Positions 3,628 to 64,000 of a DNA stretch of 64,000 bases are shown here, piece by piece. The stretch lies in assembly GCF_019635465.1 (NCBI RefSeq), contig NZ_JAHBZK010000019.1, positions 1-64,000 on the forward strand, in the 5' to 3' direction. The notes under the pieces are model-generated. The model did not search any database. It saw nothing but the letters and a program-made list of their open reading frames with translations, and was not told where the DNA came from. Source of the DNA: Hydrogenophaga sp. Lineage in GTDB: Bacteria > Pseudomonadota > Gammaproteobacteria > Burkholderiales > Burkholderiaceae_C. Both the position numbers and the translations under genes were made by a program. Every line of letters begins with the position of its first letter. The stretch's first letter is position 1.

Positions 3628-3644
3628 CCGACTGACCTTGCCCC

Positions 3645-3650
3645 AAGGAG
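3645..3650 (+). promoter_or_regulatory. Shine-Dalgarno AAGGAG for the cupin-like gene
   Basis: AAGGAG lies 7 bases before the ATG at 3658 and fixes that start. It is stronger than the ribosome-binding sites of most neighbouring genes. Confidence 0.75.
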
Positions 3651-3657
3651 ATCGGAA

Positions 3658-4521
3658 ATGTTGTCCTGCTTTGGTGAAGGCGTCGACGCCCAACTGCTTG
3701 ACCGAAAACCGTTTCGGTTCGACCACCGGCTCATGGGACACCCCTCGCTCTCCATCGAGAACCTGGCCCGTGTGATTCCCCGCCTGCCGGCATCGCAGGT
3801 GATGTACTCGACCCGGATGCTCTCGACCTCGGACAACTTCGAGAAGACCTTCCGTCAGCGGCCGCTGGACCGCAGCATCGAAGAGACCATCGAGACGCTG
3901 CGCACGTCCGACTCGTACATCATGGTCAGCTCGCCCCAGACCGATGAGTCATTGCGCGATCTCTATGAATCGCTGATTGGCGACGTCGAGGCGCTGATGC
4001 ATGAACGTGGCATCGCAGGCAAGGCGGTCACGCCCAAGCTGTACCTGTTCCTTGCGTCCCCCAACAGCGTCACGCCGTTTCACATCGATCGCTACTCGAC
4101 CTTCCTCTTGCAGTTTCGCGGCAGCAAGCAGGTCACGGTGTCCATGCCCTTTGACGATCGCGTGGTCACTCAGGAGAACTGCGAGAACTACGTCGCGTAT
4201 GTGAACACCCAGTTGCCCTGGCGCCCTGAGCTCGATGCCTATTCGACGTGCTTTGACTTCGCACCCGGGCAGGCGCTGCACATTCCGTTTGTGGCCGGGC
4301 ATCACGTGCGCAATGGCGCCGAAGACGTGTCGATTTCGATGTCGATCATCTTCAACACGCCCGAAACCATGATGTGGCGCGAGGCGCTCAACTTCAATCA
4401 GCGTGCGCGCAAGTGGTTTGGGCGCATGGGCTACCGGCCGGCACCGGTGGGTGAGGGCGGTGTTCGCGATGGTTTGAAAGCGGGTGCCTGGCGCGCATAC
4501 GCCCGCGTGCGCTCCTATTGA
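3658..4521 (+). CDS. Cupin/JmjC-like putative Fe(II)/2-oxoglutarate oxygenase
   Basis: 287 aa. The core looks like a JmjC/cupin_8-type jelly roll: TPFHIDRYSTFLLQFRG carries the H-x-D pair (His142, Asp144), and PGQALHIPFVAGHHV downstream supplies the distal His (His208, His215 or His216). FHID followed by a FRGSK-type strand is typical of cupin-like hydroxylases that coordinate Fe(II). The substrate is unknown; relatives hydroxylate amino-acid side chains in proteins or act on small molecules. It lies between ugd and the PPTase gene, which is convergent with it at a distance of 39 bp. It may hydroxylate the PKS/NRPS product, but nothing in the sequence proves this, and it could equally belong with ugd. 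The only odd feature is a basic, aromatic C-terminal tail (residues about 250-287). Confidence 0.68.
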   Translation: MLSCFGEGVDAQLLDRKPFRFDHRLMGHPSLSIENLARVIPRLPASQVMYSTRMLSTSDNFEKTFRQRPLDRSIEETIETLRTSDSYIMVSSPQTDESLRDLYESLIGDVEALMHERGIAGKAVTPKLYLFLASPNSVTPFHIDRYSTFLLQFRGSKQVTVSMPFDDRVVTQENCENYVAYVNTQLPWRPELDAYSTCFDFAPGQALHIPFVAGHHVRNGAEDVSISMSIIFNTPETMMWREALNFNQRARKWFGRMGYRPAPVGEGGVRDGLKAGAWRAYARVRSY

Positions 4522-4560: not shown

Positions 4561-5259
4561 CTACATCGCCAGGTGGGTACTGACCGGATCGAGCCAGGCC
4601 ACAGCCGCCTGGGCCTGCACGTGATTCGGTAGCGACAGGCTGCGCACAAGCACCTGGCACTCCTCGTCAGCGACGGCTATGCGTGTGCGGACCTCGGCCG
4701 TGTTGGTGCCGGCTTCGAAGACATGGGGTTCGATGGACAAGCCGCTGCCGAGGGCTTTCAGACAGGCTTCCTTGCGGCTCCAGCATCGATAGAAGGTGAC
4801 CATGCGCGCGTCGGCCGGGGTGGCCAGGAGCGAGTTGAACTCCGTCTGCGAGAAGTTTTGCCGCGCCAAAGTCAGCAAGTCATCCAGAGGGCGCTCGACC
4901 TCTATGTCCACCCCGACGGGCGTCTCTGCGCCGATGCCCAGCAGGGCCCATCGGCCGCTGTGGCTCAGGTTGAATGGCGGCGCTCCCGGGCTCGTCAGCA
5001 CAGGCTTTCCGTGCGCGCCTTCTGCAAACTGCAATGACTCGGGTGGGCATTCCAGGTGGCGCCCGAGCAGCTCGCGCAAAGCCTGGTGACTTCGGCGATA
5101 GCGGTGCGCATCTCTCGGGAAATGAAACCTGGCCGCCCGGGCGCGCTCTTGCGGGGACAGCCACCTGTCATCAGCACCTTCTGCCGGAGGGTCGCCCAGA
5201 TCGATCAGCCACAGGTCGACGTTGCCAGGGCAATCGACCTTCAAGGCGCCACTGGTCAA
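4561..5259 (-). CDS. Sfp-type 4'-phosphopantetheinyl transferase
   Basis: 232 aa. It transfers phosphopantetheine from CoA to the Ser of carrier domains, converting apo-ACP/PCP to the holo form. The family motifs are all present: GKP (84-86), NLSHS (97-101), GVDIE (116-120, metal-binding Asp118 and Glu120) and the WSRKEACLKALG helix (160-171). The length and motif spacing fit the broad-specificity Sfp/HetI class rather than AcpS. The only conventional initiation codon in range is TTG at 5259-5257; a TAG closes the frame 13 codons upstream, so the start is reasonably bounded, although ATT starts cannot be excluded. It is transcribed away from the assembly-line operon and shares the 410-bp intergenic region with it. 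The eleven carrier domains visible in this window are the obvious clients. Confidence 0.93.
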   Translation of the reverse strand: MTSGALKVDCPGNVDLWLIDLGDPPAEGADDRWLSPQERARAARFHFPRDAHRYRRSHQALRELLGRHLECPPESLQFAEGAHGKPVLTSPGAPPFNLSHSGRWALLGIGAETPVGVDIEVERPLDDLLTLARQNFSQTEFNSLLATPADARMVTFYRCWSRKEACLKALGSGLSIEPHVFEAGTNTAEVRTRIAVADEECQVLVRSLSLPNHVQAQAAVAWLDPVSTHLAM

Positions 5260-5669
5260 CCTGTCAATGGGGTCGGGGGTATCGGTAATATTTCCTACCT
5301 ATTGCCTGGTTTCGCGTGTCCAATGCCAGCGGTCATCGGCTTTCTCTGGTGGATTGGCTCTTCGCAGGGTGCCGAAACGCGGTAGATGCGGGAGACATTG
5401 TGAGGGATCCGCACGCTATCGGTGCCTCAGCGCTGTTTCGCTTGCGACCCCGTGATGAATGGCACTCGGGAAGGCCCGGGCGGAGCGGGATCGGATGATA
5501 CGTTCGGTAACATGTCGTCCTGAAAAGCCATACCTTCACGCTACACGCGTTGGGAGTGGTTGGCCGGGGCCGATAGTGCAATTGTGGAGTTCAGGGACGC
5601 GCCAATGGAGGGTGACATGGTGGTTTGTGGCACTGGCGCGGTGGTCGCAGTGTGTGGGAGGCTGGCGCC
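5260..5669. promoter_or_regulatory. Divergent control region between PPTase gene and the PKS/NRPS operon
   Basis: This 410-bp gap is the only sizeable non-coding stretch before the 53-kb plus-strand operon, so the main biosynthetic promoter should lie here. A weak sigma-70-like pair is TTGGGA (5550-5555) with GATAGT (5572-5577), spacer 16 bp. I regard it as a candidate only. Overlapping short open frames here show no recognisable protein. No regulator gene is encoded next to the operon within the window. Confidence 0.45.
5656..5661 (+). promoter_or_regulatory. Shine-Dalgarno GGGAGG for the type II thioesterase
   Basis: GGGAGG sits 8 bases before the ATG at 5670. It favours that start over the in-frame ATG at 5625, which would add 15 residues unlike thioesterase N-termini. 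Confidence 0.7.
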
Positions 5670-6446
5670 ATGAGCAACAGCTGGTTGCTGCGTTTCGTTC
5701 CGCGTCATTCACCTCGGATGAGGCTGTTTTGCTTCACGCATGCGGGCGCCAGCGCCGGGGTGTTTCGTCCCTGGTGTCAGGATCTGCCAGAGTCCATCGA
5801 ACTGGTGGCCATTCAGTTGCCTGGGCGCGCCAATCGCCTCAATGAAGCGCCGCTCAGGCGCATGGCCGATCTGGTGGCAGGGGTGGTGCAGTCGCTCGGT
5901 GGGCAGTTGGGTCTGCCCTATGCGTTCTTTGGCCACAGCATGGGCGCCGTGCTGGCCAGCGAAGTGGCGCGGCGACTGCGCGACATGGGCGAACGCGCGC
6001 CGGTGCACCTGTTCGTCTCGGGCCGACGTCCACCACATTGGCCCAACCCCGATCCGCTGTTGCACGTGCTCGACGACGCAGGGTTTGTCAGCGAGGTTCA
6101 ACGCCGCTACGGCGGCATTCCGCCCGAGGTCGCAGTGCACGAGGACCTGATGGCCCTGTTGCTGCCTGCTTTACGTGCCGACATCGAGGCGCTGGAGACG
6201 CATCTGCCGCCGTTGGGCCGCGAGCCGCTGGCGTGCCCTGTCACCGTATACGGCGGCGCGGACGACCCGCTCACTCCCCTTGATCACTTGCACGCCTGGC
6301 GTGAAGACGCGGGCGGCAGCTTCCGTGTGCGGGTGTGGCCCGGTGACCACTTCTACCTGCAGGCGCAACGCAGCCCGTTGCTGGCCGACCTGGCCGACAG
6401 TCTGTTGCCCACTCTGGTCGGCACGGCTCGCGAGGCCGTGGGATGA
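5670..6446 (+). CDS. Type II thioesterase (external editing thioesterase)
   Basis: 258 aa alpha/beta-hydrolase of the GrsT/RifR class. It hydrolyses aberrant acyl groups from stalled carrier domains and usually does not release the product. Ser90 is in the elbow GHSMGA, Asp198 in the GGADDPLTP loop and His227 in GDHFYL: a complete catalytic triad. The N-terminal FTHAGASAGVFRPW and LPGRANR motifs are diagnostic for this class. It is the first gene of the plus-strand operon. Its TGA overlaps the ATG of the first PKS gene (ATGA at 6443-6446), implying translational coupling. Because no integrated thioesterase exists in the assembly line, a role in release cannot be excluded, but editing is the family norm. 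Confidence 0.93.
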   Translation: MSNSWLLRFVPRHSPRMRLFCFTHAGASAGVFRPWCQDLPESIELVAIQLPGRANRLNEAPLRRMADLVAGVVQSLGGQLGLPYAFFGHSMGAVLASEVARRLRDMGERAPVHLFVSGRRPPHWPNPDPLLHVLDDAGFVSEVQRRYGGIPPEVAVHEDLMALLLPALRADIEALETHLPPLGREPLACPVTVYGGADDPLTPLDHLHAWREDAGGSFRVRVWPGDHFYLQAQRSPLLADLADSLLPTLVGTAREAVG

Positions 6447-43100: not shown

Positions 43101-43629
43101 GATTGCACCTGAAGAAGGCATGCACATGCTCGCTCGCATGCTGCGCAGTGCGCGAGCCCCGCAAATGGCCGCGATGCCTTTGGTGCGGTCGCGTCTGCCA
43201 GTCAATCTGGGGCCGTTTTTCTCAGCTCTGGTGAAGGCGGCACCCGACAGGGCGACGGCCAAAGCGCCGGCGCCCGCGCCAGACATACTGCCGCGTCTGG
43301 CCGTGACGCCGGCTGGCGAGCGCCATGCCGTGCTGTCGGAGTTCCTCAGCGCGCAAATCGTCAGCGTGCTCGCACTGGGCAGTGCGCACCGCCTTGACCC
43401 GCAGAGCTCCTTGATTGACCTCGGCATGGATTCCCTCATGGCCATGGAACTGCGCAACCGCATGCTGGCCTCGCTCAAGGCCAGCGTGGCGGTGGCCGAT
43501 CTGCTGCAGGGCCCGAGCGTGTCCACGCTGGCTGCCACGCTCTTGGCAGAAATCGCTTTGCCCGCGTTCGCAGCATCGGAGACGATGGGCGATGCGCCGG
43601 TGGGCGAATGGGAGGAGGGCACACTTTGA
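37123..43629 (+). CDS. Type I PKS, module 6: KS-AT-DH-ER-KR-ACP
   Basis: 2168 aa with a GTG start overlapping the previous stop. The N-terminal coil LLKRSLVAIDQLKARLAAVEA is the docking element. KS Cys210; AT Ser664 with HAFH (malonyl). The DH keeps His966 and Asp1139 (DACLQ), but the Gly of HxxxGxxxxP is Glu970 (HRIFEFTLFP), an unusual change next to the active site. The ER has HAVTGGVGMAAL near 1606. The KR starts near 1793 with Tyr1940 and VIDD. ACP Ser2104 is in GMDSL. If the DH works, a saturated extension results. The C-terminus (VGEWEEGTL) lacks the LSDDE-type tail of modules 1-5, consistent with a change of docking class before the NRPS. The stop overlaps the first transporter start (TGATG). 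Confidence 0.96.
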   Translation: MSEQRPGVDHAALLKRSLVAIDQLKARLAAVEASRSEPIAIIGIGCRFPGGVDSPEAFWTLLHSGRDAVTEVPPHRWDVERYYDANPDVVGKSYTRWGSFVDDVDRFDAPFFGISPREAVSLDPQQRLLLEVTWESLERAGIAPSSLAGSRTAVYMGITTGDYAGLMNEERGLGNGDAYTPSGTAHSVAAGRLSYFLGLHGPNVAIDTACSSSLVAIHWGIQSLRNGETDLALAGGVNLTLSPDGSILTSRARMMSFDGHCKTFDAKADGYVRGEGCGVLVLKRLSDARRDGDRVLAVLRGSALNQDGRSSGLTAPNGAAQEAVIRDALANARLQPADIGYVEAHGTGTPLGDPIEVKALHQVYGRERTGGKLLLGSVKTNIGHLEAAAGVAGVIKVVMALQHATIPPHLHLKNPNPLIAWDQYPIQVPTVPTPWPREGAAPRRAAVSSFGFSGTNAHMVIEEAPTHDVTSETGVRAEHLFVLSAQTPSALTEQARRLADALAADPSLAPGPVAATLALGRSHFVERLATVAGSTEELRSQLRSFVDATDADDAVLPGGLVRSRASLGAAPEVVFMFTGQGAQYLDMGRQLYEQEPVFRAAMDECDRLASPHLPQGLLQTMFGQEADRLDDTAFTQPSLFAIEYSLAQLWRSWGVEPTGVMGHSVGEYVAACVAGVFSLEDGLRLIAERGRLMSALPRDGGMAAVFADEATVREAIAGAGSALSIAAVNGPQNTVISGRMDALQAALAWLQNKGIEAQALSVSHAFHSPLMEPMLEAFRSVVAGVELRPPGIDLASNLSGSLAGEELCQPDYWCRHIRDAVRFDDGIVAMQQAGYRVFLEVGPSPTLVNMAQRGSGAADATWIASLRKGRVDTRCLLDGLGRLHARGVPVRWPAVLGEAMARRRVNLPTYAFQRERYWFEPTGRPGGASLAATRSGHPLLGGQVPSPLSIFQNDIDLSTQPWLKDHRIFEFTLFPGTGFLELAQIAAREVSGVQNIGLVDVVIREGLPLPDEGHRTVQVIVQPPEGGLQQVRVYSMVKPAHTGAAEVEWKLHVSAAFAVTPLAAPAMVQRASLLGEAATRHDVQDYYERLAMQGAHYGPAFRCITAVESEGPSVLGRVALPAELAASATSYLVHPALLDACLQLVGIGLPWGTGSGQDTSGDDLCVPVGMGSYAVHRAGQAMAWCHVQVEPAPADADVVRGDVTLFNDDGSVVAELRGLELRRVTRAALQRAMSGSAPPAEWAFESVWQSVPLAQTPATHATGRWLVLADESGVGQALAARLQGDGATVALIGRGESVGAPGPGVWRVDADDAAQLRRAVEEALRAEGPALQGIVLAWSLAAPEGEDTLQARHLRLLDDMLRVVRSLGDVPGARLWWLTRGAQAVAGSQVDLLQAPLWGLGGVFASEYPALRCARVDLDPVRREDEPVLLMATIVGGDVEDRVALRGGERYVARLQPGEFVPEPRPLLLDITERGSLDRLALVEVPRPAPGPGQVEIRVHATGLNFRDVLNALGMYPGDPGPLGNECAGVISAVGEGVTDLAVGDEVVAMVDRSFATWVIAPAVMAVLKPPGMTFAEAATIPVTFLTAEYALRHLAGMKKGDRVLVHAVTGGVGMAALQLARRAGAEVFGTAGSPAKRALARELGAHHLADSRSLSFAEDVMRDTNGEGVDIVLNSLAGDFIPESLRMLRRGGHFIEIGKTGIWDAATVAESFPGVHYHPLYLGEVAAARPEFVRDMLRDLLADFERGVLKPLPHKLYPIERAEQAFRFMGQGHHVGKLVITQHEAPVIRGDASYLVTGGLSGLGLVTARWLASEGARHLVLVGRRDPTPEAQAGIDALVSEGVQVRVARCDVADAAQVQALVHSLASGGPRLRGVMHAAGVIDDGMLAELDIGRFAPVMAPKVQGTWNLHQATLPLALDFFVCFSSGAALMGSPGQGNYAAANAFMDALASVRREQGQHALSINWGSWSEVGMAAGLGELHHRRWASMGLGMIAPEEGMHMLARMLRSARAPQMAAMPLVRSRLPVNLGPFFSALVKAAPDRATAKAPAPAPDILPRLAVTPAGERHAVLSEFLSAQIVSVLALGSAHRLDPQSSLIDLGMDSLMAMELRNRMLASLKASVAVADLLQGPSVSTLAATLLAEIALPAFAASETMGDAPVGEWEEGTL

Positions 43630-44546
43630 TGGTCGATCGCGCGCAGGCTGCAATGACGAGGTCGTGGATGAACCCACGGCGCGTGGCAATTTTGTTAACC
43701 CTGGGCTTCACCATGGTGTGGGCGCTGGCGGAGCTGTTGGTCGTGCAGCTGCATCACCGCTACAGCTTGGTGCAGGTCGAATCGATTCGCTTTGCGACGC
43801 AGTTCGTGCTGTTGCTGCTGGTGGCTCGTCCACGTACAACCGGCCAGGTTGCCCGGTTGTGGCACAGCCGTCGTCCGGCACTGCAGGTCTTGCGTGGCCT
43901 GGCGCTGCTGGGGCTGCCCTTCGGTTTCGCCAGCGCCGTGTACTCGGGCGTCTCAATCCCAGTGGCGCTGGTGGGGCTCTGGTGCGCACCCTTGTTCACC
44001 GTGGCCCTGGCGGCGTTGGTACTGCGCGAACAAGTTCAGGTGCGGATGTGGCTGGCGGCCCTGGCGGGAATGGTGGCTGCGCTGCTGCTGATTGCGCCGC
44101 CAGGCCCGATAGAGCCAGCGGACCTGATCATGCCCATGCTATCGGGCCTGTCCCTGGCGCTCTTTCTGGTTCTCTCGCGCACCCTTGGCGACGAATCCGT
44201 TCAGACCGGGCTTCTGTTTGTGGCCACGGTCGGTCTGTTGGTGCTGCTGCCTTTCGTGGCGGGCAAGTGGGTGCAGCCCGGCATTCGGGATGGATTGGTG
44301 CTGCTGGTCGTCGCCCTGTTGGGTACTCTGGCGCTTTGGTTGATCGATCTTGCCTTGCGCTACGGGAAGGCATCCGAAGTGGCGTCGCTGCTTTACGTGC
44401 ATGTGCTCGTCATGCACTGGATGCCGCCGCTGTGGCATGGCCAGACGCCGTCCTGGCGTCTGCTGTTGGCCACCAGCCTGATGGGCATGCTGGTGCTGGC
44501 CTTGTGGTGGTCCAAAGAGCGGCAGCTTAGAGAGGCCATGGCATGA
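43629..44546 (+). CDS. EamA/DMT-family transporter 1
   Basis: 305 aa from the ATG at 43629, overlapping the PKS stop; the in-frame ATG at 43608 lies inside the PKS gene. The sequence is almost entirely hydrophobic with about ten predicted membrane helices arranged as two EamA-type halves. The loop PFGFASAVYSGVSIPVALVG and the LVLREQV helix end are typical of drug/metabolite transporters. It is placed in the inner membrane and is probably an exporter. Its position inside the biosynthetic operon suggests export of the product or handling of a precursor; the EamA family also contains importers, so direction is inferred. It is paralogous to the next gene, with which it overlaps by ATGA. Confidence 0.88.
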   Translation: MVDRAQAAMTRSWMNPRRVAILLTLGFTMVWALAELLVVQLHHRYSLVQVESIRFATQFVLLLLVARPRTTGQVARLWHSRRPALQVLRGLALLGLPFGFASAVYSGVSIPVALVGLWCAPLFTVALAALVLREQVQVRMWLAALAGMVAALLLIAPPGPIEPADLIMPMLSGLSLALFLVLSRTLGDESVQTGLLFVATVGLLVLLPFVAGKWVQPGIRDGLVLLVVALLGTLALWLIDLALRYGKASEVASLLYVHVLVMHWMPPLWHGQTPSWRLLLATSLMGMLVLALWWSKERQLREAMA

Positions 44547-45463
44547 GCCTGTGGTCGGCTGTCGGTGACCCTGTCCGCCTGGAGGGTGGTCGCCGGGCTT
44601 GGCTGTTGCTGGCTGTGTTCGCGCTGTCGTGGACCCTGCTCGAAGGCGTTGTGGGCGCCCAGTTCCAGCACCCGTACCACCTGCTGCAGATTGTCTGGTG
44701 CCGCTATGCGGTGCACCTGCTGGCCGTGTGGGTAATCTGGGGGCGGCGCCATCCTGCGCAACTGTGGCGCACGCAGCGACCGGTGTTCCATGTAATGCGC
44801 TCTCTGTGCATGCTGGTGATGCCGCTGGGATTCGCCATGGCGCTGTATGGCGGCATGCAAATGCACACCGTATGGGCGTTGTTCTGGATGGCGCCCTTGC
44901 TGATCCTGGTGCTGGCCCGGCTATGGCTGCGCGAACTCGTGCCGGCGTCGGCCTGGGTGGCTGCGGTGTTGGGCAGCGCCTCGGCTGTGTTGTTGCTGGG
45001 CCTGCACTGGCCAGCCCATGCGTTCACAGTGTTGTGGCCCCTGGCCATGGCGGCGTCGTTTGCGGTCTACATGGCCATGACGCGCCAGTTGCGCTCAGAG
45101 CCTGTACAGACCAACCTGTTTCATACCGCAGCGGCCGTGTTCCTGCTGCTGACGCCGATCATGCCCTGGGTGTGGACGATGCCCACACTGCACGATGTCG
45201 CGGTGCTGATCGCGATTGGCCTGGTGGGCCTGCTGGGCCTGTGGGTGCTGGATCGTGCCTGCGAAGCCGCGCCCGTGTCCGCAACCGCCCCGGTACTCTA
45301 TCTGCATCTGGCCGGTATGTTCGCCATTGAAGCCTGGGGTGGTAGCGTGGCGCTGCTGGCCCGCCAGGGCCTGTCCCTGGTACTGGTAGCGATCGTGTTG
45401 GTCATCGCATGGCGGATGTCGGCCCAAGGTGCGCCGAACCCCACCAGACTGGAAAGGCATTGA
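44543..45463 (+). CDS. EamA/DMT-family transporter 2
   Basis: 306 aa, about ten transmembrane helices, a paralogue of the preceding gene. The shared landmarks include R-x-L at the start of helix 3, PLGFAMALYGG against PFGFASAVYSG, and LWLREL against LVLREQ. The tandem pair may form a heterodimer or handle different ligands. The start overlaps the previous stop (ATGA), and its own TGA is 4 bases before the GTG start of the NRPS gene. The genes split the assembly line exactly at the PKS-to-NRPS transition, which suggests the transporters are integral to the cluster rather than passengers. Confidence 0.88.
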   Translation: MSLWSAVGDPVRLEGGRRAWLLLAVFALSWTLLEGVVGAQFQHPYHLLQIVWCRYAVHLLAVWVIWGRRHPAQLWRTQRPVFHVMRSLCMLVMPLGFAMALYGGMQMHTVWALFWMAPLLILVLARLWLRELVPASAWVAAVLGSASAVLLLGLHWPAHAFTVLWPLAMAASFAVYMAMTRQLRSEPVQTNLFHTAAAVFLLLTPIMPWVWTMPTLHDVAVLIAIGLVGLLGLWVLDRACEAAPVSATAPVLYLHLAGMFAIEAWGGSVALLARQGLSLVLVAIVLVIAWRMSAQGAPNPTRLERH

Positions 45464-52000: not shown

Positions 52001-53628
52001 CAGCCAGCGCTGTCAGCGAAGCGCGGGCCAATGCCCAGCGGATCGAGGGGGCGTTCTCGCTGTGGGGCTTGCGCGCTGACGCAGGGCGCGACGCGCTGTA
52101 CCACCTGCCGGTGGCACTGGCCAATGCGCTGGCACCCCGTTCGTCAGAGCCGGTGCGGCTGGTGGTGGCAACCATGGGCGCGCACAGCGTGTTGGGTGAG
52201 CCGGTTCGTTGCAGCGAGGCGGCCTTGGCCATGGGGCCGGTGCTGGCGATGCCGCTGGAGTTGCCCGGCCTTCGCATGCGCCAGCTGGATCTCCCGGTGG
52301 AGGAGGTCGACAAGCAGCCGATGCTCGTGCAGGCCTTGATCGATGAGGCAACCACGCGCGACCACGAAGACGTCGTGGCACGTCGCATGGGCCAGCGCTG
52401 GCTGCGACGGATGGAGTCCTGTCCGCTGCCCAGGGTTTCGCCTGACCAGCCGTTGTTGAGCACGGGCGCCGTCGTGGTGATGACCGGCGGACTGGGTGGT
52501 ATGGGGCTGGCCATTGCGCAGCGACTTGCGCAGCGACACCAGGCGCGATTGCTGTTAACCGCGCGCACCGCACTGCCAGCCCGCGCCGAATGGGCGGCGT
52601 GGCGGGCTTCGCACGACGCAGGCGATCGCACCGCGCAGGTGATCGCCGCGCTGCAGTCCATCGAAGCGGCTGGCGGCGAAGTGGAGGTGGCCTGCGCCGA
52701 TGCGGCGGACGCCTCGGCGATGGCCGAGGCCATTGAAACCGCCCGACGACGCTGGGGGCGTATCGACGCGCTGATACACGCGGCCGGTGTGGCGGGCGAG
52801 GGGACTCTGGCAACCCTGAAATCGACCCAGGCGGTCGACGCCGTGCTGGCCCCCAAGGTGGATGGCCTGGGCGTGTTACGCGATTTGCTGGCCAATGACG
52901 CGCTGGAGTGCGTCGTGCTCATGGGGTCCATCAACGCCGTGCTGGGTGCACCCGGGGTGAGCGACTACGCCTCGGCCAACGCGGTGCTGGATGCCTTTGC
53001 CGAGTCGAATGAGGTGCCGCCGAACTGGCGCCGTGTGCTTGCCTTTGACTGGGGTGCCTGGCGTGAGGTCGGCATGGCGGCCAGGCTGGAGGTGCCTGCC
53101 TGGCGTCGGGCAGCCTGGGATGCCTACCTGGCCAAAGGCATTGGCACCGAGCAGGGGTTGGACGCATTCGAGCGGGTGATGGCCAGCGCGCTTCGCCGTG
53201 CGGTCGTGGTGCCCTACGACCTGCCTGCGGCCTTGGCGCTGACGCGTGCGGCCGTGTTGAACCCCGCACACGCTCAGCCCGACCCTGCGCAACCACAGGA
53301 TGCCGCCACCGCGACATCTGATCGTGCGGCCGCGGGCAAGCCCGTCGCGCCGGTGCGAACCGATGATGTGCAGGGGCAGGTGGCTGCCATCTGGATGGAG
53401 TTGCTCGGTCTGGAGCAGGTGGTTCCCGAAGACGATTTCTTCCAGCTGGGCGGTCATTCGCTGCTGGCCACCCGGGTGCTGGCGAGGGTGCGCGATTCCA
53501 TGGGGGTTCAGCTCGCGCTGCGTGACATGTTCGATGCTTCGACATTGCAAGCGTTCGCAGCACGGGTGCAGGCAGGCCTGAGTGGGACAGAATCGGCCGA
53601 TGATGACCGGGAGGAGATCGAGTTTTGA
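49078..53628 (+). CDS. Hybrid PKS, module 8: KS-AT-KR-T
   Basis: 1516 aa. The KS has Cys182 in TACSTSL; the STS variant and divergent opening are typical of ketosynthases that accept peptidyl chains from NRPS carriers. AT Ser625 is in GHSIGE with SHAFHS (malonyl). The region from about 920 to 1120 is the non-catalytic KR half, and the KR catalytic half has TGGLGGMG near 1135, Ser1284 and Tyr1297. The LDD of B-type KRs is absent (VAGEG), so the hydroxyl configuration may differ from the other modules. The carrier Ser1461 is in LGGHSLLATR, which is PCP-like rather than ACP-like. The predicted result is glycine extended by two carbons and reduced: a 4-amino-3-hydroxybutyryl unit. The start is 16 bp after the previous stop, the largest gap in the operon. 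Confidence 0.94.
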   Translation: MDSKDTFPPHAIAIVGMAGRFPDAQDLDGFWRNIREGVESLETFSDEDLREAGVDPALSAQPHYVRRGTVLQDAEHFDAAFFGMSPREAQVIDPQQRIFLECAWEALEHAGYAPGAIDAPVGVYAGASMNSYLLAQILRNPKVAATVGGYQLMLGNDKDFLCTRVSYKLDLHGPSMTLQTACSTSLVAVQVACRALERHECDIALAGGVSVSYPQRGGYLYQEGMILSPDGHCRPFDADAKGTRPGAGAGIVVLKRLADALADGDTVHAVIRGAAINNDGSGKAGYTAPSVDGQVEVIATAQILAGVQPHSIGYIEAHGTATPLGDPIEIAALKQVFASDTDAAGHCRLGSLKANLGHLDAAAGVAGLIKTVLVLKHRELPPLVNFQRANPQLDLANSPFTASAEVAPWPAGETPRRAGVSSFGIGGTNAHVVLEEAPEPAARDRHAAPHLVVLSARSEAALASASQRLAAHLHKHPGEALADVAWTLQVGRRAFAHRRAVVAGSTAELAQALEAGSRPPVHSSLHEGGERPVAFLFSGQGSQFAGMGAGLYETYPVYRDAVDRCAVQLQATLGRDLRDLLFATQGDTTINETRYAQPALFVTEYALAMLWQSWGVRPAAMLGHSIGEYVAAHLAGVMTLADALTLVAARGRLMQSMAPGAMAAVHMDKAELKAWLGAHAPNLEIAAVNAPGLCAIAGPRQVMDAALVALAAQGVEAQLLHTSHAFHSSMMDAVLTPFTDLVAQRVLSAPVVPYVSNVTGQWITAEQATSPAYYAEHLRSAVLFEAGVRTLGADASLHLLEVGPGRSLSTLAGLSLGPKGVRRVVASLGGAREPQQEARALLEAAGRLWLAGAALDASGMHAGHHPRRIPLPTYAFERQRHVIEAAPGDSSVGVETPASPSTSRASRDSAEVTYRADVGDWLYAPTWVRAPDNRAPGLKDTWLIAGGEDALATALAQGLQAMGADVVRASTVQEAASAVSEARANAQRIEGAFSLWGLRADAGRDALYHLPVALANALAPRSSEPVRLVVATMGAHSVLGEPVRCSEAALAMGPVLAMPLELPGLRMRQLDLPVEEVDKQPMLVQALIDEATTRDHEDVVARRMGQRWLRRMESCPLPRVSPDQPLLSTGAVVVMTGGLGGMGLAIAQRLAQRHQARLLLTARTALPARAEWAAWRASHDAGDRTAQVIAALQSIEAAGGEVEVACADAADASAMAEAIETARRRWGRIDALIHAAGVAGEGTLATLKSTQAVDAVLAPKVDGLGVLRDLLANDALECVVLMGSINAVLGAPGVSDYASANAVLDAFAESNEVPPNWRRVLAFDWGAWREVGMAARLEVPAWRRAAWDAYLAKGIGTEQGLDAFERVMASALRRAVVVPYDLPAALALTRAAVLNPAHAQPDPAQPQDAATATSDRAAAGKPVAPVRTDDVQGQVAAIWMELLGLEQVVPEDDFFQLGGHSLLATRVLARVRDSMGVQLALRDMFDASTLQAFAARVQAGLSGTESADDDREEIEF

Positions 53629-56600
53629 ACGCGCATGAGCTGCTGCACCGGCTGCAAGAGCTCGGTGTGGAACTGGCGGTGTCCGAAGGCCGGCTGCGCG
53701 CAAGCGCCAGCCGCGGTCGGCTCGACGACGAGCTCAAGGCGGCCATCGCGGCCAACAAGCTCGAGCTGATCGCTCTGCTCGATGCGCGACATGGGGCAAT
53801 TGAGTCGTCGACGCTGCCTCGGGTGAATCGCGAGGGCCTGTTGCCCTTGTCCATGTTTCAGGAGCGCCTGTGGATCCTGCAGCGGCTCGATCCACAAAGC
53901 ACCACCTACCTGTTGGCGCTTGCCTGGCCGGTATCGGGCGAGGTTCCCCGTGATCGCCTGGTGAGCGCGGTCCGGCGCGTGCATGCCCGCCACCTTGGCC
54001 TGCGGGTGCACTTTGTGCAGGAAGGTGACGCGCTGGGCGCCCGGGTGGTCGACGTGCCCGAGGTGCTGGTGCGTGACATGCGCGAGATTGCGCCTGAGGC
54101 GCGCCGGGATGCGGTGCAGTCGGCCATCGACGCCGCCGTGCACACCCCGATCGATCTGGCTGCGCAGACACCCTTGCGCTTCGAGGTGCTGGACTTCGGC
54201 CCTGATGGGCAGGTGCTGCTCGCCGTGGCACACCACATTGCGGTGGATGCCTGGTCACTGAACATCCTGCTGCGCGAACTGGGTGAAGAGCTTGTGCAGC
54301 CGCAACCGGAGCTGTCAGCTGCCGATGGCTTGCAGTACGCCGATTTCGCGGCCTGGCAGCGCACGCACCAGCAACCGCAGACGCTGGCCAGCGAGCTCGA
54401 CTGGTGGAGCCAGGCACTGCAGGGCGCGCCCCAGACCTCCATGTTTGTGCCCGACCTGGTTGATACCGACGTGCCGGCCCGAGGTGCAACCGTCGACTTC
54501 ACGCTGGACGCGGAACTCACTCGCGGCCTCAAGCAATGGGTGCAGCCTCGTCACGTCACGGTCTACATGGCATTTCTGGCCGCGATCGCCACGCTGCTTC
54601 GCGTTCACACCGGCCAGCAAGACGTCTTGCTCGGTAGCCCGATGGGGGTTCGCGAGCGGCCGGAATTCGAGTCGCTGATCGGGCCATTTGTGAACCTGTT
54701 GGTGCTTCGCCTGCAGATGCAGGACGACCCCTCGTTTGCCGATCTGGTGCAACGGGCGCGTGGGGCCTTGCTTGACGCCCACGAACACCGCGCGACGCCC
54801 TTCGAGAGCGTGGTCGAGCGTGTGCGACCAACACGTTCATTCCAGCATTCGCCGCTGTTTCAGGTGGCGGTGGTGTATCACCAGGCGGGCGCGCAGAGCG
54901 ACGTGGTGGTTCACAGTGGGGGTGCGCTCAACGAGATAACCTGGTTCGCTCGTGAAGTCGATGCCTGCATTGTCTGCAGCCTGGAATACCGCAGCGACCT
55001 CTACAGCGCGGCGAGCATGCAACGCCTGGCGGCCCAGTTGCAAGCCCTGCTGACTGCGGTGGTGGCACAGGGCGATGCGCCGCTGAGCCAGCTGCCCTGC
55101 ATGGATGCCGCCGCGCAGCGACAGGTGTTGATCGAGTTCAATGACACCGATCAGACGCTGGATGACAGGCCCTTCGTTCGCCAATTCGAGCAACAGGCGG
55201 CCAGGGCGCCGGAGCGAATCGCCGCTGCATTCGAAGGCGCGACGCTGAGCTACGAGGCACTCAACCGGCGCGCCAACCAGTGGGCGCGACAGTTGCGCGC
55301 TCTGGGCGTGACTTCCGGCGTGCGCGTGGGTGTGTGCGTCGAGCGCTCGCTGGACATGCTGGTGGCGCTGATCGCAGTTCAAAAGGCCGGCGGCGCCTAT
55401 GTGCCGCTTGACCCGGGCTTCCCGGCTGATCGGTTGGCTTACATGCTCGAAGACAGTGGCGCACCGGTGCTCATCAGTACCGGCGAGGCTCTGGACATGG
55501 TGGATCCGCCGCCAGGGGTTCAGCTGTTCGATCCTGCACAACAGGCCACTGCGCTTGCTGGTCTGGATGCGCGCGACCTGGACGTTCACCTGAACCCCGG
55601 CGAGGCGGTGTATGTGATCTACACCTCGGGCTCCACCGGTCGGCCCAAGGGCGTGGCGATCTCCCATGGGGCATTGAGCAACTTCCTCGGCAGCATGCGG
55701 CAGGCGCCCGGCCTGTCGAGCGACGACGTGGTGGCGGCGGTCACCACGATCTCTTTTGACATTGCCGGGCTGGAGCTCTACCTGCCGTTGCTGGTGGGTG
55801 CTCGCGTGGAGCTCGTCTCGCGCGAGGTCGCCACCGACGGGCAGGCGCTGGAGGCACAACTGCGTGCGGCCGGTGCCACCGTGCTGCAGGCCACGCCTGC
55901 GACGTGGCGCCTGTTGCTGGAGTCGGGCTGGCGGGGCGACCGCACGGTGCGCGCCTTCTGCGGTGGCGAGGCCCTGCCCAGAGAGCTGGCCGATGCCTTG
56001 CTCGAGCGTGTGGGCGAGCTGTGGAACCTGTACGGACCGACCGAAACGACCATCTGGTCGACCATCGAATGTGTGCCACGCGCCAGCTCGCCAGTGAGCA
56101 TCGGCAGGCCGATCGCCAACACCCGCGTTTACGTGCTGGACGCTCACCGTCGTCCCTTGCCGATTGGCGTTGCGGGGGAGCTTTGGATCGGTGGGCAGGG
56201 TGTCGCGATGGGTTACCACCAGCGTCCTGAGCTCACGGCCGAGCGTTTTGCCCCCGACCCCTTTGCACCGAGCGCGTCTGGCGGCGTCGAGCCACGGATG
56301 TATCGCACCGGCGACCTGGCCCGTTGGGATGCGGACGGGCGCCTGTACCACCTGGGGCGGTTGGATCACCAGGTCAAGATCCGCGGCTTTCGCATCGAGC
56401 TGGGCGAAATCGAGGCGCGATTGGCCACCCATCCGTCGGTGCAGCAAACCGTGGTGATGGGCAGAGAGGCAGCGCCTGGGGATCTGAGGCTGGTGGCGTA
56501 TGTCGTCCCTGCACCCGGCGCCGACCTGACCGCCAGCGATGTGCGTCGCCACCTGCGTCGTGACTTGCCCGACTACATGATTCCAGCGGTGGTGGCTTCG

Positions 56601-56939
56601 GTTGACGCCATACCACTGACCCCCAATGGCAAGGTGGACCGCGCGGCCTTGCCCGATCCGTTCCGCAACGCCGTGCAGGCCTCACGTCACTATGTGGCAC
56701 CCGCATCCGGAGCGGAAGAGACCATGGCGGCGATCTGGTGCGACATTCTGCGCGTGGAGCGTGTGAGCGCCGAAGACAACTTCTTCGAACTCGGAGGGCA
56801 CTCCTTGCTGTCGCTGAGGGTGGTGCTGGCGGTCGAGCAGCGTCTGGGCTGGCGCATGGACGCGCGCACCTTGTTTTTCCAGAACCTGCGCCAGGTGGTG
56901 GCCTCCGCTGCAGCGGGCAAAGGAGTCGTCAAGGCATGA
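53625..56939 (+). CDS. NRPS module 9: TubC-C-A(Gly-like)-PCP
   Basis: 1104 aa. The start is TTG at 53625, overlapping the previous TGA (TTGA); the nearby ATG at 53635 is out of frame. A single TubC-type domain occupies residues 1-52. The C domain has HHIAVDA (His203, His204, Asp208), with Ala in place of the usual Gly. The A domain has YTSGSTGRPKG near 666, YGPTETTIW and A10 Lys1003. The pocket read by alignment is D-I-L-Q-F-G-L-I-W-K, the glycine code with Phe for Leu at position 299; glycine is the best guess. PCP Ser1060 is in LGGHSLL. The protein ends about 45 residues later with no TE, reductase or terminal C domain, so release of the plus-strand product must use a separate protein. The stop overlaps the first hydrolase start (ATGA). 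Confidence 0.93.
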   Translation: MNAHELLHRLQELGVELAVSEGRLRASASRGRLDDELKAAIAANKLELIALLDARHGAIESSTLPRVNREGLLPLSMFQERLWILQRLDPQSTTYLLALAWPVSGEVPRDRLVSAVRRVHARHLGLRVHFVQEGDALGARVVDVPEVLVRDMREIAPEARRDAVQSAIDAAVHTPIDLAAQTPLRFEVLDFGPDGQVLLAVAHHIAVDAWSLNILLRELGEELVQPQPELSAADGLQYADFAAWQRTHQQPQTLASELDWWSQALQGAPQTSMFVPDLVDTDVPARGATVDFTLDAELTRGLKQWVQPRHVTVYMAFLAAIATLLRVHTGQQDVLLGSPMGVRERPEFESLIGPFVNLLVLRLQMQDDPSFADLVQRARGALLDAHEHRATPFESVVERVRPTRSFQHSPLFQVAVVYHQAGAQSDVVVHSGGALNEITWFAREVDACIVCSLEYRSDLYSAASMQRLAAQLQALLTAVVAQGDAPLSQLPCMDAAAQRQVLIEFNDTDQTLDDRPFVRQFEQQAARAPERIAAAFEGATLSYEALNRRANQWARQLRALGVTSGVRVGVCVERSLDMLVALIAVQKAGGAYVPLDPGFPADRLAYMLEDSGAPVLISTGEALDMVDPPPGVQLFDPAQQATALAGLDARDLDVHLNPGEAVYVIYTSGSTGRPKGVAISHGALSNFLGSMRQAPGLSSDDVVAAVTTISFDIAGLELYLPLLVGARVELVSREVATDGQALEAQLRAAGATVLQATPATWRLLLESGWRGDRTVRAFCGGEALPRELADALLERVGELWNLYGPTETTIWSTIECVPRASSPVSIGRPIANTRVYVLDAHRRPLPIGVAGELWIGGQGVAMGYHQRPELTAERFAPDPFAPSASGGVEPRMYRTGDLARWDADGRLYHLGRLDHQVKIRGFRIELGEIEARLATHPSVQQTVVMGREAAPGDLRLVAYVVPAPGADLTASDVRRHLRRDLPDYMIPAVVASVDAIPLTPNGKVDRAALPDPFRNAVQASRHYVAPASGAEETMAAIWCDILRVERVSAEDNFFELGGHSLLSLRVVLAVEQRLGWRMDARTLFFQNLRQVVASAAAGKGVVKA

Positions 56940-57706
56940 CGCCGCTGTATTTTGGTGACCGCTCGCGGCGCCTCTTCGGGCTGTATACCCCGGCGCATGC
57001 CAGTGGCACGCGTGCGCGCGGTGCTGTGATTTGCGCGCCCTGGGGCGTCGAGCACTTGCGCGCGCACCGCAGCATGGCGCAGTTGGGCAAGTGGCTTGGC
57101 GAGGCCGGCGTGCATGTCTTGCGCTTTGACTACCACGGCACCGGGGACTCGGCGGGCGACATGGGCGATGCGCGACTGGACGGATGGCGCGACGACGTGA
57201 TGACCGCTGTCGAAGAGCTCAAGGACACCGCAGGTGTGCAGCGCGTGACGCTCGTGGGTCTGCGGCTCGGGGCGGTGCTCGCCGCGCAGGCGGCGGCCGC
57301 GCGACGCCGCGACATCGATGGCCTGGTGCTCTGGGACCCGGTCGTTCATGGCGCTACCTATCTGCGCGAATTGCAAGCGCTGCACGCCCAGACCTTGCAT
57401 GCCCGTGCGTTGTCTGGCCAGGAGGGCGAGTTGCTGGGGTTCCCGGTCAGCGAAGGGCTGCTGCAGGACATGGCTGGCATGGACCTGCTTGAGCAGGTGG
57501 CGAAGTGGCCGAGCCGCATGCTGGTCTTGAGCAGCGGTCCGATGGAGGAGGGCCCGGCGCTTACCGAGGCGCTTCGCTCGGCCGGTCGCGAAGACGCGGT
57601 GGAATGCCTGGACGTGCAGGCCGCCTGGTTGGAGGACCGGCATTCGGGTGCCGGGGCGGTGCCGGTGAAGTTGCTCCGGCGAGTCGTCGATTGGACGATC
57701 GCATGA
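56936..57706 (+). CDS. Alpha/beta-hydrolase-fold protein without nucleophile (pair A, member 1)
   Basis: 256 aa from the ATG overlapping the NRPS stop; a longer in-frame start at 56738 is inside the NRPS. The fold signatures are clear: a CAPWGVEHLRAHRSM loop, RFDYHGTGDSAGD, and the strand-turn-helix VGLRLGAV. At the nucleophile elbow (G-x-S-x-G) the Ser is replaced by Arg110 (GLRLG). GLRLGA is the form I associate with the exosortase A system-associated hydrolase 2 family, usually next to a hydrolase 1. The next gene is that kind of partner. Without Ser, Cys or Asp at the elbow it is unlikely to be an ordinary esterase, so a structural or acyl-binding role in a heterodimer is possible. Same-strand coupling to the NRPS suggests a role in chain release or acyl transfer, which is inferred. 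Confidence 0.82.
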   Translation: MTPLYFGDRSRRLFGLYTPAHASGTRARGAVICAPWGVEHLRAHRSMAQLGKWLGEAGVHVLRFDYHGTGDSAGDMGDARLDGWRDDVMTAVEELKDTAGVQRVTLVGLRLGAVLAAQAAAARRRDIDGLVLWDPVVHGATYLRELQALHAQTLHARALSGQEGELLGFPVSEGLLQDMAGMDLLEQVAKWPSRMLVLSSGPMEEGPALTEALRSAGREDAVECLDVQAAWLEDRHSGAGAVPVKLLRRVVDWTIA

Positions 57707-58578
57707 ATGCCGTGGCCGAACAGACGCTGTTATTGGGGCCCGCCAATGGCCTGGTGGGCGTCATCACCCCTGCGCAGCCGCCGGCCGACGGTATTGGCGT
57801 ACCCGATGACAAACCCTTCGTGGTCATCCTCAACGCCGGCATCATTCATCGTGTGGGTCCCAATCGCCTGCACGTGTCCCTGGCGCGTGCGCTGTCCGCC
57901 GATGGCTTTCCGGTGTTGCGGGTGGACCTGTCGGGGTTGGGGGACAGCGCGGCTCGCGAGGACGGCGCGGCCCCGCTCGAAGCCGCCATGGCCGACATCA
58001 AGGACGTCATCGACACCTTGCAGGCCACACGCAAGGTGCAGCGCGTGGTGTTGATGGGGCTGTGTTCGGGGGCCGACCATTCGGTCATCTACGCAGCCTC
58101 AGACCCCAGAGTGGTGGGCGTAGCCTTGCTCGATCCATCGATCCCGCGCACGACCGGTTACTACCTCAAGCACTATGCGGGCCGATTTTTCCGCGCGCGC
58201 ACCTGGATGAATGTGGCCTCAGGGCGGCATCCCCTGTGGAAGGTCGTTACCCGGCGTCAATCGGTCGCCAGCGCAGACATGGCCGATGCACGCCCTGCGG
58301 TCACCCTGGAGCATCCCGAGGTTCGGGCATTCCTTGAAAAGGCCTATGGCGGCGCGCTGGCCAACGACACACAGATGCTGGCCGTGCTGACGTCCGATCG
58401 CGAGCGTCAACACAACTACCGGCGTCAACTGCTCGATGCCTTTCCCGCGCTGAATTTCAAGGGGCGCCTGTTGATCGAATACTTTGATCACTGCGATCAC
58501 ACCTTCACGACGCTGGCGAACCAGCAGCGCCTGGTGGCCCTGGTGCGGCGGTGGATGCAGGGCACCCGGTTTCGTTGA
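57703..58578 (+). CDS. Cys-nucleophile alpha/beta-hydrolase (pair A, member 2)
   Basis: 291 aa from the ATG at 57703 (ATGA overlap); the longer in-frame start at 57505 lies in the previous gene. The elbow is MGLCSGAD, placing Cys121 at the nucleophile position. His266 in CDHTF is a suitable catalytic His, and RVDLSGLGDSA is the conserved strand-4 region. The N-terminal ILNAGIIHRVGPNRLHV resembles exosortase-associated hydrolase 1 and the minus-strand homologue ending at 58621 (ALLSNSGVIPRSGPHRI). It ends the plus-strand operon. A Cys nucleophile is found in some chain-releasing thioesterases and cyclases, so with its partner this is the best candidate for off-loading the module 9 product. That assignment is inferred from position and the active site. 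Confidence 0.85.
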   Translation: MNAVAEQTLLLGPANGLVGVITPAQPPADGIGVPDDKPFVVILNAGIIHRVGPNRLHVSLARALSADGFPVLRVDLSGLGDSAAREDGAAPLEAAMADIKDVIDTLQATRKVQRVVLMGLCSGADHSVIYAASDPRVVGVALLDPSIPRTTGYYLKHYAGRFFRARTWMNVASGRHPLWKVVTRRQSVASADMADARPAVTLEHPEVRAFLEKAYGGALANDTQMLAVLTSDRERQHNYRRQLLDAFPALNFKGRLLIEYFDHCDHTFTTLANQQRLVALVRRWMQGTRFR

Positions 58579-58620
58579 CGGTGCTCGCACCCCTGGCGGG
58601 GGAGGCCGTGGCGGGTGTTG

Positions 58621-59478
58621 TCAGCCTTTGCGGTTGGCTGGCAACACGCGATGTTCGACCCAGCGCGTGGTCATGTCGATGAACGCCTGCTTGGCGGGGC
58701 CGCTGGTGATCAGGTGATCGGTGGTTTCGAGCAACTCGAACGCAACACGCGGCAACCAGGGTTGGCCGCGAAACATCGCCGCAAACTGTCCGCGGTGGTT
58801 GAACCACTCCGGCTGGCCACCGCAGTAGGCAAACAGCAGCTCGACCCCCTGTGCAGTGAGTGTGTCAACACGCGCCATGAACTCATCCTTGGGCGGCGAC
58901 ACCGACATTTCGCCCTTGGGCTTTTCGGGCGTGTCGTCAGGCGGCACCAGACGCAGTGCGCGCAGTGCCATCACCGCGGCCTTGCGCGTGGAACCGGCCA
59001 ATCCCGCGCGCCCGATCTTGAAGGCGAGTTTGCGCAGGCGCGATTGCAGCGTGGGGTAGGCATACATGTCCCACAGCAGAACCGCTCGCATGCGCGGGTC
59101 CTCCAGGGCGACCAGGTGACCAATGATGGCGCCCGAACACAGGCCCACCATGAAAAAGCGGTCACACCCGAACTGTGCCTGTGCAGCGTTCATGACATCG
59201 CGGGTATCCGCAACCCATTGCTCGGTAACAGAGCGCGTGTGGTTGCTGCGTTGGCTGTCGCCCAGCCCGCTCATGTCGAAGCGCACCGAAGCGATTCCCA
59301 TGTCGGCGAGCGCGCGGGCCAGCAGGACGTTGATGCGATGGGGACCGCTGCGGGGAATCACACCGGAGTTGCTCAGCAGAGCGACCACCGGTACAGGGTT
59401 GCCGGGGATGGTGGCTGCTGGGGTGAAAGTGGCCACCAGATGGCCTTCCGACCCCACGATGCGGGTTTGCTCCTGCAT
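58621..59478 (-). CDS. Cys-nucleophile alpha/beta-hydrolase (pair B, member 2)
   Basis: 285 aa from the ATG at 59478-59476, two bases after the stop of its upstream partner; a longer in-frame start at 59802 lies within that partner. The elbow is VGLCSGAI with Cys114 and the likely catalytic His is 255 in TTDHLITS. RFDMSGLGDS and SNSGVIPRSGPHRI align with the plus-strand homologue at 57703. A polar insert (about 190-215, PPDDTPEKPKGEMS) distinguishes it. It is convergent with the plus-strand operon, 42 bp apart. It probably acts with the minus-strand NRPS, as its homologue does with the plus-strand NRPS. Confidence 0.85.
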   Translation of the reverse strand: MQEQTRIVGSEGHLVATFTPAATIPGNPVPVVALLSNSGVIPRSGPHRINVLLARALADMGIASVRFDMSGLGDSQRSNHTRSVTEQWVADTRDVMNAAQAQFGCDRFFMVGLCSGAIIGHLVALEDPRMRAVLLWDMYAYPTLQSRLRKLAFKIGRAGLAGSTRKAAVMALRALRLVPPDDTPEKPKGEMSVSPPKDEFMARVDTLTAQGVELLFAYCGGQPEWFNHRGQFAAMFRGQPWLPRVAFELLETTDHLITSGPAKQAFIDMTTRWVEHRVLPANRKG

Positions 59479-59480
59479 GG

Positions 59481-60284
59481 TCAGTTCAAAGAAGACAAGA
59501 GCACCCTGGGAATGTCGGGTGGCGCGATGGCGGTTCCCATGGCCTGACTGGACATCCAGTCGGTGGGGTGTTCGACGGTGTGCAGACGAAGGGCGGCCAG
59601 TCCTGTGTGGGCGGCGAGCGGGTTGGGCCGATCGCCTCGCGTGGCACAGGTGACCTGAAGCCCGCGCCGCAGGGCGGGGAGCACGTTGAAATCGGGCAGG
59701 GCTCGCAACTCGTCCACCAATCGGGCACCGAAGGTGAAACCCAGGACGTCGCCGGGCAAGGTGGGCTCGGCCACTTTCGCTTGGCGTACCAGCTGGTCCC
59801 AAGGTTGGGCAAACATCATGGCCAGCTCGGTTCGATGGCCTTCCAGCAAGGCATCAAGGTACTGGGCGCCATTGAGCACCGGCTCCCAGAGCACCAGGTG
59901 CCTCGGCGGTCGCCTGGCCAGCAAAGCCGCACGCAAGGCGATGACCGCGCCCAGCCCCATGCCGAACCAATGCACCGGCACGTCGTCGGTGGCCACCAGT
60001 TCGTGTGCGATCAATGTGTCGTGTACCCAGTCGTCGAGTGACTGGTCTGCCTCGTCACCGAGCGAATCGCCGGTGCCGTGGTAGTCAAAGCGCAGCGATT
60101 CGATGCCTTCGCGCGACAGCCGCTCGCCAGCGACCCGGAAGACGGCCGCACTGCGCACTGCCTCCTGCCCCAGTGGGCGACAAAGCAGGAACCTGGCGCG
60201 CGGGGGCGTTGCTCCCTCGGCGAGCGCGTGAACACCCACCATCGGCCGGTTCCATGGGCCGAAATGTCGGATGGAAATGGTCAT
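59481..60284 (-). CDS. Alpha/beta-hydrolase-fold protein without nucleophile (pair B, member 1)
   Basis: 267 aa. CRPLGQEAVRSAAVFR and RFDYHGTGDSLGD are conserved with the plus-strand homologue at 56936. The elbow reads WFGMGLGAV: the nucleophile position is Gly110, at the same residue number as Arg110 of its counterpart, so both copies have lost the nucleophile in different ways. VLWEPVLNGAQYL matches VLWDPVVHGATYL. It starts 37 bp after the minus-strand NRPS stop and is followed by the Cys hydrolase 2 bp after its own stop. The order NRPS, no-nucleophile partner, Cys partner is therefore identical on both strands. It is probably non-catalytic on its own. Confidence 0.82.
   Translation of the reverse strand: MTISIRHFGPWNRPMVGVHALAEGATPPRARFLLCRPLGQEAVRSAAVFRVAGERLSREGIESLRFDYHGTGDSLGDEADQSLDDWVHDTLIAHELVATDDVPVHWFGMGLGAVIALRAALLARRPPRHLVLWEPVLNGAQYLDALLEGHRTELAMMFAQPWDQLVRQAKVAEPTLPGDVLGFTFGARLVDELRALPDFNVLPALRRGLQVTCATRGDRPNPLAAHTGLAALRLHTVEHPTDWMSSQAMGTAIAPPDIPRVLLSSLN

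Positions 60285-60321: not shown

Positions 60322-64000
<3,679 letters not shown>

Follow-up and report, generated by a model that had tools for sequence, protein, structure and literature searches.

The window studied here is a stretch of 64,000 nucleotides from Hydrogenophaga sp. (RefSeq assembly GCF_019635465.1, contig NZ_JAHBZK010000019.1, positions 1 to 64,000), and our subject is a set of four alpha/beta-hydrolase genes that lie in it as two mirrored pairs (Table 1). On the plus strand, a nonribosomal peptide synthetase (NRPS) gene encoding condensation (C), adenylation (A), and peptidyl carrier protein (PCP) domains is followed by a gene for a hydrolase without a nucleophile (the dead partner, dead_a) and then by a gene for a homologue with a Cys nucleophile (the Cys partner, cys_a), with neighbouring genes overlapping by 4 bases each. 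The minus strand repeats this order with an NRPS gene, dead_b, and cys_b, and the two pairs converge across a gap of 42 bp (58579-58620). The original prediction, made from the letters alone, had given these positions, the residues Arg110/Cys121 and Gly110/Cys114, and the 42-bp tail-to-tail spacing, and a recheck of coordinates and residue numbering returned the same values. That each of the two pairs stands behind a synthetase lacking a thioesterase (TE) is a confirmed observation.

Table 1. Positions of the genes and domains of the window that are discussed in the text
Feature	Positions	Strand	Characteristics
dead_a, pseudo-hydrolase	56936..57706	+	Arg110 in nucleophile elbow GLRLG; TIGR03101 114.8 bits; PF12146 above cut-off
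cys_a, putative Cys hydrolase/transferase	57703..58578	+	GLCSG, Cys121, His266, Asp144; TIGR03100 97.4 bits
cys_b, putative Cys hydrolase/transferase	58621..59478	-	GLCSG, Cys114, His255; TIGR03100 48.8 bits
dead_b, pseudo-hydrolase	59481..60284	-	Gly110 in GMGLG; TIGR03101 76.3 bits; Gly clade in tree
Terminal NRPS, plus line	53625..56939	+	docking domain-C-A-PCP, no TE (Pfam)
3' part of minus-line megasynthase	60322..63999	-	..A-PCP-C-A*-PCP, no TE; upstream to L004:8999
A*, degenerate adenylation domain, terminal minus-line module	60700..61863	-	hhalign against live A domains
Free type II thioesterase, possible rival release or editing enzyme	5625..6446	+	PF00975 150.8 bits
Phosphopantetheinyl transferase	4561..5259	-	PF01648

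All four hydrolases score above the gathering cut-off (27 bits) of the Hydrolase_4 (S33-type) family PF12146, at 52.3, 36.4, 32.7, and 34.3 bits. Their best NCBIfam matches are TIGR03101 for the dead partners and TIGR03100 for the Cys partners, with every score below the equivalog cut-offs (202.75 and 168.45 bits, respectively); no TIGR03101 match above cut-off was found in the searched contigs of the source genome. None of the four contains a PF00975 thioesterase domain at E 0.01, and the nucleophile is Cys (GLCSG), not Ser. Judged by these profile scores, the window hydrolases are S33-type alpha/beta hydrolases related to the exosortase hydrolase families and outside their membership, and the resemblance to exosortase hydrolase 1/2 pairs that had been proposed for them is borne out by the best matches, though these lie below the cut-offs. 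The two dead partners share 35% identity, the two Cys partners 30%, and dead and Cys types 24-32%; the AlphaFold2 (AF2) model of cys_a reached a predicted local distance difference test score (pLDDT) of 91 and a predicted template modelling score (pTM) of 0.88.

Both synthetases end in a carrier domain, the PCP match of the plus-line enzyme ending at residue 1093 of 1104, 11 residues before the stop. Pfam (E 0.01 or 0.001) detected no thioesterase domain in any megasynthase of the window, nor further upstream in the minus-strand gene, in agreement with the predicted absence of a TE on both strands. The minus-strand gene continues beyond the window, and L004:3-8999 (minus strand; L numbers denote loci and G numbers genomes) together with window positions 60322-63999 forms a single gene of about 12.7 kb. 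Its complete Pfam domain order is A-PCP-KS-AT-PCP-class III aminotransferase-C-A-PCP-C-A*-PCP (KS, ketosynthase; AT, acyltransferase), which we liken to an iturin-type beta-amino acyl start. The region designated A* has no Pfam adenylation match but an hhalign probability of 98.3% against live A domains of the window, with which it aligns over its length; it lacks the stretch bearing the YTSGSTG loop and is retained in three relatives at 36-57% identity. For the minus line, the expected NRPS without TE was found in a refined form, ending in a C-A*-PCP module whose A domain is degenerate and conserved, a feature that the original prediction had not mentioned. Since A* is degenerate and the PCP behind it retains the GGTSL serine motif, this PCP may need loading in trans.

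Pairing, co-inheritance, and the missing nucleophile

An alignment of the Cys partners was used to scan one genome per species, and the best 80 of 117 relatives were kept as loci. Because these are the best relatives of the window's own Cys alignment, NRPS-type loci are favoured in the sample. The scanned loci span Pseudomonadota, Planctomycetota, Gemmatimonadota, Acidobacteriota, Myxococcota, Bdellovibrionota, Bacteroidota, Chloroflexota, and other phyla. A dead partner adjoins the Cys gene in 78 of the 80 loci, on the same strand in 69 and divergently in nine; at one of the exceptions (L107), the match starts at base 88 of its stretch. In a separate phylum-wide sample, 40 of 397 genomes matched, and all 29 foreign loci taken from it were paired, 17 as one dead-Cys open reading frame (ORF) and 12 as adjacent genes. 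The divergent loci are L056, L057, L058, L062, L066, L077, L080, L082, and L100. In eight of them (not L077), the dead gene lies ahead of an NRPS gene on the same strand and not after it, and no NRPS was seen at L077.

Fusions join the dead partner to either neighbour. PCP and dead partner form a single ORF in four of the 80 loci (L083, L090, L094, and L097) and in another cluster of genome G028 (L033), which puts the dead partner where a thioesterase would sit. A single dead-Cys ORF also occurs in L064 and in nine of 10 plasmid loci. We modelled the natural L064 fusion with AF2 from an alignment (A4) made up of the fusion itself, 41 dead rows, and three rows built from two neighbouring genes translated across a stop. 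The model, with a mean pLDDT of 80.9, a pTM of 0.82, and low confidence at the linker (residues 291-332), suggests that the dead and Cys halves are packed against each other.

The two partners also share their history. Mirror-tree comparison of dead-partner and Cys-partner distances gave a Spearman coefficient of 0.72 over 86 pairs (L078, L103, and L121 were left out besides the rows dropped from the tree), with 0.25 as the largest value among 500 permutations. In Hydrogenophaga genomes with two pairs, the coefficient was 0.67 and 0.82 for own partners and about 0 for swapped ones, which amounts to one observation per type as the four genomes tested share ranks. The proteins dead_a and dead_b fall in well separated clades of the tree, and the window's pairs appear to be two separate units of long standing, not the outcome of a recent duplication. 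Within the genus, the mirrored quartet and the same flanking domains are kept in two further genomes (G011 and G028), and both convergent pairs are present in H. borbori (L045), about 3 kb apart; the quartet is therefore more than a chance arrangement. In G022, the b pair, with the cys_b homologue directly after dead_b, ends the same kind of line, and an additional pair ends a second NRPS. A Cys-partner profile matched 15 of 67 genomes of the genus at E 1e-15 or better, a count that includes lower-scoring matches of exosortase type.

The nucleophile Cys is present in all 101 Cys-partner rows and the His in 100, the remaining row being cut short. The scan pattern was the loop N-[ASV]-G...R-x-G-P, so the Cys was not selected for by the search. 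Asp144 is conserved in 81 of the 101 rows and follows strand 137-143 of the cys_a model, at what we take to be the acid position of NRPS thioesterases. At the dead site, the 89 rows left after duplicates and misaligned rows were dropped comprise 78 with Arg and 11 with Gly (84 and 13 of 97 before dropping). The rows dropped from the tree are L043, L046, and L116 (duplicate contigs) and L067, L088, L092, and L122 (partial or misaligned); the 97-row and 101-row counts still include them.

Every dead row examined lacks the nucleophile, and these rows split from five Cys outgroup rows (tree support 100/98), so that the missing nucleophile is, on this tree, a trait shared by the family. The original prediction had taken Arg and Gly as one position lost in two different ways; read as two independent events, this is not supported by the tree, on which we take the loss to be shared and to have been followed by exchanges at the site, the Arg/Gly label requiring four changes (a separate count, as the Gly row of the tree table was compared with the outgroup only). 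Since Arg is the commoner residue, is found in all seven exosortase hydrolases 2, and is separated from Gly by these four changes, the Gly sites look mostly secondary, as Arg-to-Gly swaps. Arg as the ancestral state is a tentative reading, given that 12 of 26 fused forms (aligned later, outside the tree) have Gly at the dead site and 14 have Arg; their other site is Cys in all 26. The deep root of the dead-partner tree is weakly supported. The family, the window pairs included, is two-component in composition, with the partner adjacent or fused, Cys and His in one member, and Arg or Gly in the other.

Carriers, exosortase loci, and polysaccharide loci around the pairs

The original prediction had called for a survey of the pair beside TE-less NRPSs in other genomes. 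Of the 80 loci, 49 contain NRPS domains (counted wherever they lie, which in L079 is the far end only), seven contain only carrier, A, or KS domains, and 24 contain none. In at least 38 of the 80 loci, a PCP is found no more than 1.5 kb upstream of the dead gene, a count that is a lower bound because loci with touching domain borders were missed. One line recurs in several phyla, with the order adenylate-forming domain-acyl carrier protein (ACP)-KS-AT-ACP-aminotransferase-C-A-PCP and the dead and Cys genes beside it. With the type II enzyme of the window as the query, a TE-family ORF was found in five of 90 loci (L050, L060, L069, L098, and L099); none of these ORFs carries synthetase domains, and a single query of this kind could miss a diverged cis thioesterase.

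The pairs of the exosortase A loci (hydrolases 2 and 1, TIGR03101 and TIGR03100) have the same build, with an Arg-site partner followed by a Cys partner in all seven loci. All seven also have an ACP-like ORF that carries an LDS motif, and in six it adjoins the hydrolase 2 gene on the same strand. Four of the five such ORFs scanned pass the 20.8-bit cut-off of PF00550, and that of L034 reaches 20.1 bits; the AMP-forming ligase TIGR03098 scores above cut-off in both exosortase loci scanned (L034 and L036). The window proteins differ from these hydrolases in scoring far below both equivalog cut-offs and in their putative donor, an NRPS PCP rather than a free ACP. A further relative is the fused dead-Cys hydrolase, which in 11 of 23 loci lies near genes for an ACP, an acyl-CoA dehydrogenase, an amino acid:[carrier protein] ligase, DUF1839, and GH2, sometimes on the opposite strand. 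It is like the window pairs in combining dead and Cys parts near a carrier and a ligase, and unlike them in being a single polypeptide with no NRPS seen. Two Azospirillum plasmids carry the same annotated set around the fused form. Ligase neighbourhoods with fused dead-Cys, ACP, acyl-CoA dehydrogenase, DUF1839, and GH2 were noted at L125, L127-L130, L188, L191-L194, L196, L199, and L200, and the Cupriavidus plasmids L127 and L128 contain a polysaccharide cluster in addition.

Of the 24 stretches without carriers, five measure less than 10 kb and 11 less than 12 kb, but the remainder are not short. A search of these 24 loci with three carrier models (E 0.05) revealed no hidden carrier, and the same held for 20 control stretches; it may not be sensitive to divergent carriers, as the first model failed to detect the exosortase ACPs even at E 10. 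Eight of the 24 carrier-less loci had two or more polysaccharide marker families, compared with one of the seven with carrier, A, or KS domains only, none of the 49 NRPS loci, and none of the 20 controls, which came from the window's own order. Of the fused loci, 17 of 23 have at least one such marker, some of them weak (E 1e-6, a looser threshold without control). Glycan acylation was considered as a general role and rejected, as no NRPS locus has two or more of these markers; we keep it for part of the family only. On the megaplasmid of Variovorax paradoxus VAI-C (L123:1096-29274), a run of NRPS, phosphopantetheinyl transferase (PPTase), dead, and Cys genes leads into a polysaccharide export and glycosyltransferase cluster. 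The pair family is not NRPS-specific: it occurs also at exosortase-A ACP loci, amino acid:[carrier protein] ligase loci, and polysaccharide-type loci.

In the window itself, the pairs are flanked by NRPS and polyketide synthase (PKS) genes (no search aimed at exosortase or TIGR03098 was made there). Beside the PKS-NRPS cluster, positions 810-4521 hold genes for a chondroitinase-B-like protein (just below cut-off), a UDP-glucose/GDP-mannose dehydrogenase, and cupin-like proteins. Two successive EamA-like transporter genes (43608-45463, plus strand), the second of them weak and below cut-off, lie within the PKS-NRPS gene run.

Proposed function and alternative explanations

With moderate confidence, we propose that each pair is a two-subunit, carrier-dependent Cys acyltransferase/thioesterase that would unload the terminal carrier instead of a cis thioesterase, and probably an off-loading device common to many bacteria. 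The proposal is drawn from the pairing, the co-inheritance, the fusions, the conservation of Cys and His, the absence of a TE domain, and the frequent proximity of carriers. The dead subunit would dock on or beside the terminal PCP and pack against the Cys subunit. The acyl chain would leave the phosphopantetheine thiol for Cys121 (or Cys114), aided by His266 (or His255) and probably Asp144, and would then be passed to water, an internal amine, a small molecule, a glycan, or another carrier as the acceptor, which may differ between lines. As neighbour of the carrier or fused to it, the dead subunit is likely the docking or structural part and the Cys subunit the one that does the chemistry; release, hydrolysis, and transfer are indistinguishable by computation. 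The original prediction was partly supported: a two-component device behind synthetases that have no TE fits the data, the carrier-dead and dead-Cys fusions included, and the element of independent nucleophile losses was dropped.

Several observations weigh against this proposal. No recognised carrier, A, C, or KS domain lay within reach in 24 of the 80 loci; the original prediction had named a pair common beside carrier-less genes as evidence against itself, and this was found in part, eight of the 24 having at least two polysaccharide marker families. At L120, no separate dead ORF was found in 3 kb of upstream sequence even in a lax search. The packing in the L064 fusion is read from pTM only, and few rows of the underlying alignment cover the Cys half. 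The window also encodes a free type II thioesterase. Among solved structures, the nearest are for the most part esterases and lipases, with the thioesterase DcsB ranking lower, and the putative acyltransferase 4nvr is a weak sequence match only. Among the Foldseek matches listed (50 per search), all are single-domain hydrolases.

Enzymes that move groups between or off carriers offer precedents for the proposed off-loading. CmaE/SyrC and CouN7 have an alpha/beta fold and a Cys nucleophile, and we know of no dead partner for any of them. Compared by description only, they resemble the proposed device in removing aminoacyl or acyl groups from a carrier domain: PMC8748450 describes CmaE and LgnA as transferring aminoacyl groups between carrier domains and the acyltransferase CouN7 as moving a group off a carrier. 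The shuttles among them also suit the alternative that the pairs load or shuttle in trans, moving an aminoacyl or peptidyl group between carriers, for instance to the last PCP of the minus line, where the module's A domain is degenerate. In six of 36 loci (L078, L085, L106, L110, L111, and L123), the module adjoining the pair lacks an A domain or has a weak one only, and in G022 the b pair stands between a C-A*-PCP-type module and a new NRPS that seemingly starts with an A domain. Against this, the adjacent module has an A domain in 21 of the 36 loci, as it does in the plus line, so no trans loading is needed there (nine of the 36 could not be told), and a dead partner fused behind the last PCP suits release better. 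We regard such a shuttle as unlikely for the family as a whole and as a serious alternative for the minus line.

Free-standing, carrier-linked alpha/beta hydrolases often act as editing enzymes, and the pair might likewise be an analogue of type II thioesterases that clears wrong or stalled acyl groups and has no dedicated part in release. A type II thioesterase is already present in the cluster, however, and it would be unusual for an editor to stand behind the last PCP, to have its dead partner fused to a PCP, and to have Cys in place of Ser, which makes this role improbable. The polysaccharide markers of the carrier-less and fused loci, together with the Variovorax run into polysaccharide export, would fit a hydrolase of an exported glycan or of the finished product, acting at the surface or in self-protection, with the carrier linkage incidental. 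Such a role is very improbable in view of the NRPS loci, where no two markers occur together, of the recurrent carrier-dead-Cys order, and of the PCP fusions.

Chain off-loading by a two-subunit Cys device thus remains our preferred explanation. Its position after the last PCP and its alpha/beta fold are shared with the cis and type II thioesterases of NRPSs (PF00975), from which the window pairs differ in the lack of a PF00975 match, the Cys in place of Ser, and the second, dead subunit. Trans-acting thioesterases of the PBP type (SurE), described in PMC11735501 with a Ser/His/Asn/Lys tetrad and a lipocalin-like domain, have only the free-standing role in NRPS release in common with it. Chain off-loading by alpha/beta hydrolases is already known; new here is the conserved pseudoenzyme subunit, and a role of the pair in NRPS release was not found described in the open-licence literature. 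A wider, tentative extension, which we hold to be possible rather than probable, is that a single pan-bacterial class of Cys acyltransferase with pseudo-hydrolase serves TE-less NRPS release, the exosortase-A branch with ACP and AMP-ligase, and the amino acid:[carrier protein] ligase operons, moving aminoacyl, peptidyl, or acyl groups from a carrier to an acceptor that in some lineages would be a surface glycan.

It is not evident how NRPS and PKS lines release their products when a terminal thioesterase is missing. If the proposal is true, a two-gene signature behind the last carrier would explain part of these lines and offer a new off-loading part, and the exosortase-associated hydrolases and the fused hydrolase encoded in operons with amino acid:[carrier protein] ligases would gain a testable function. 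A nucleophile-less partner, with Arg or Gly at its dead site, that is kept across phyla and fused to the carrier or to its active partner would be an unusual design for chain release.

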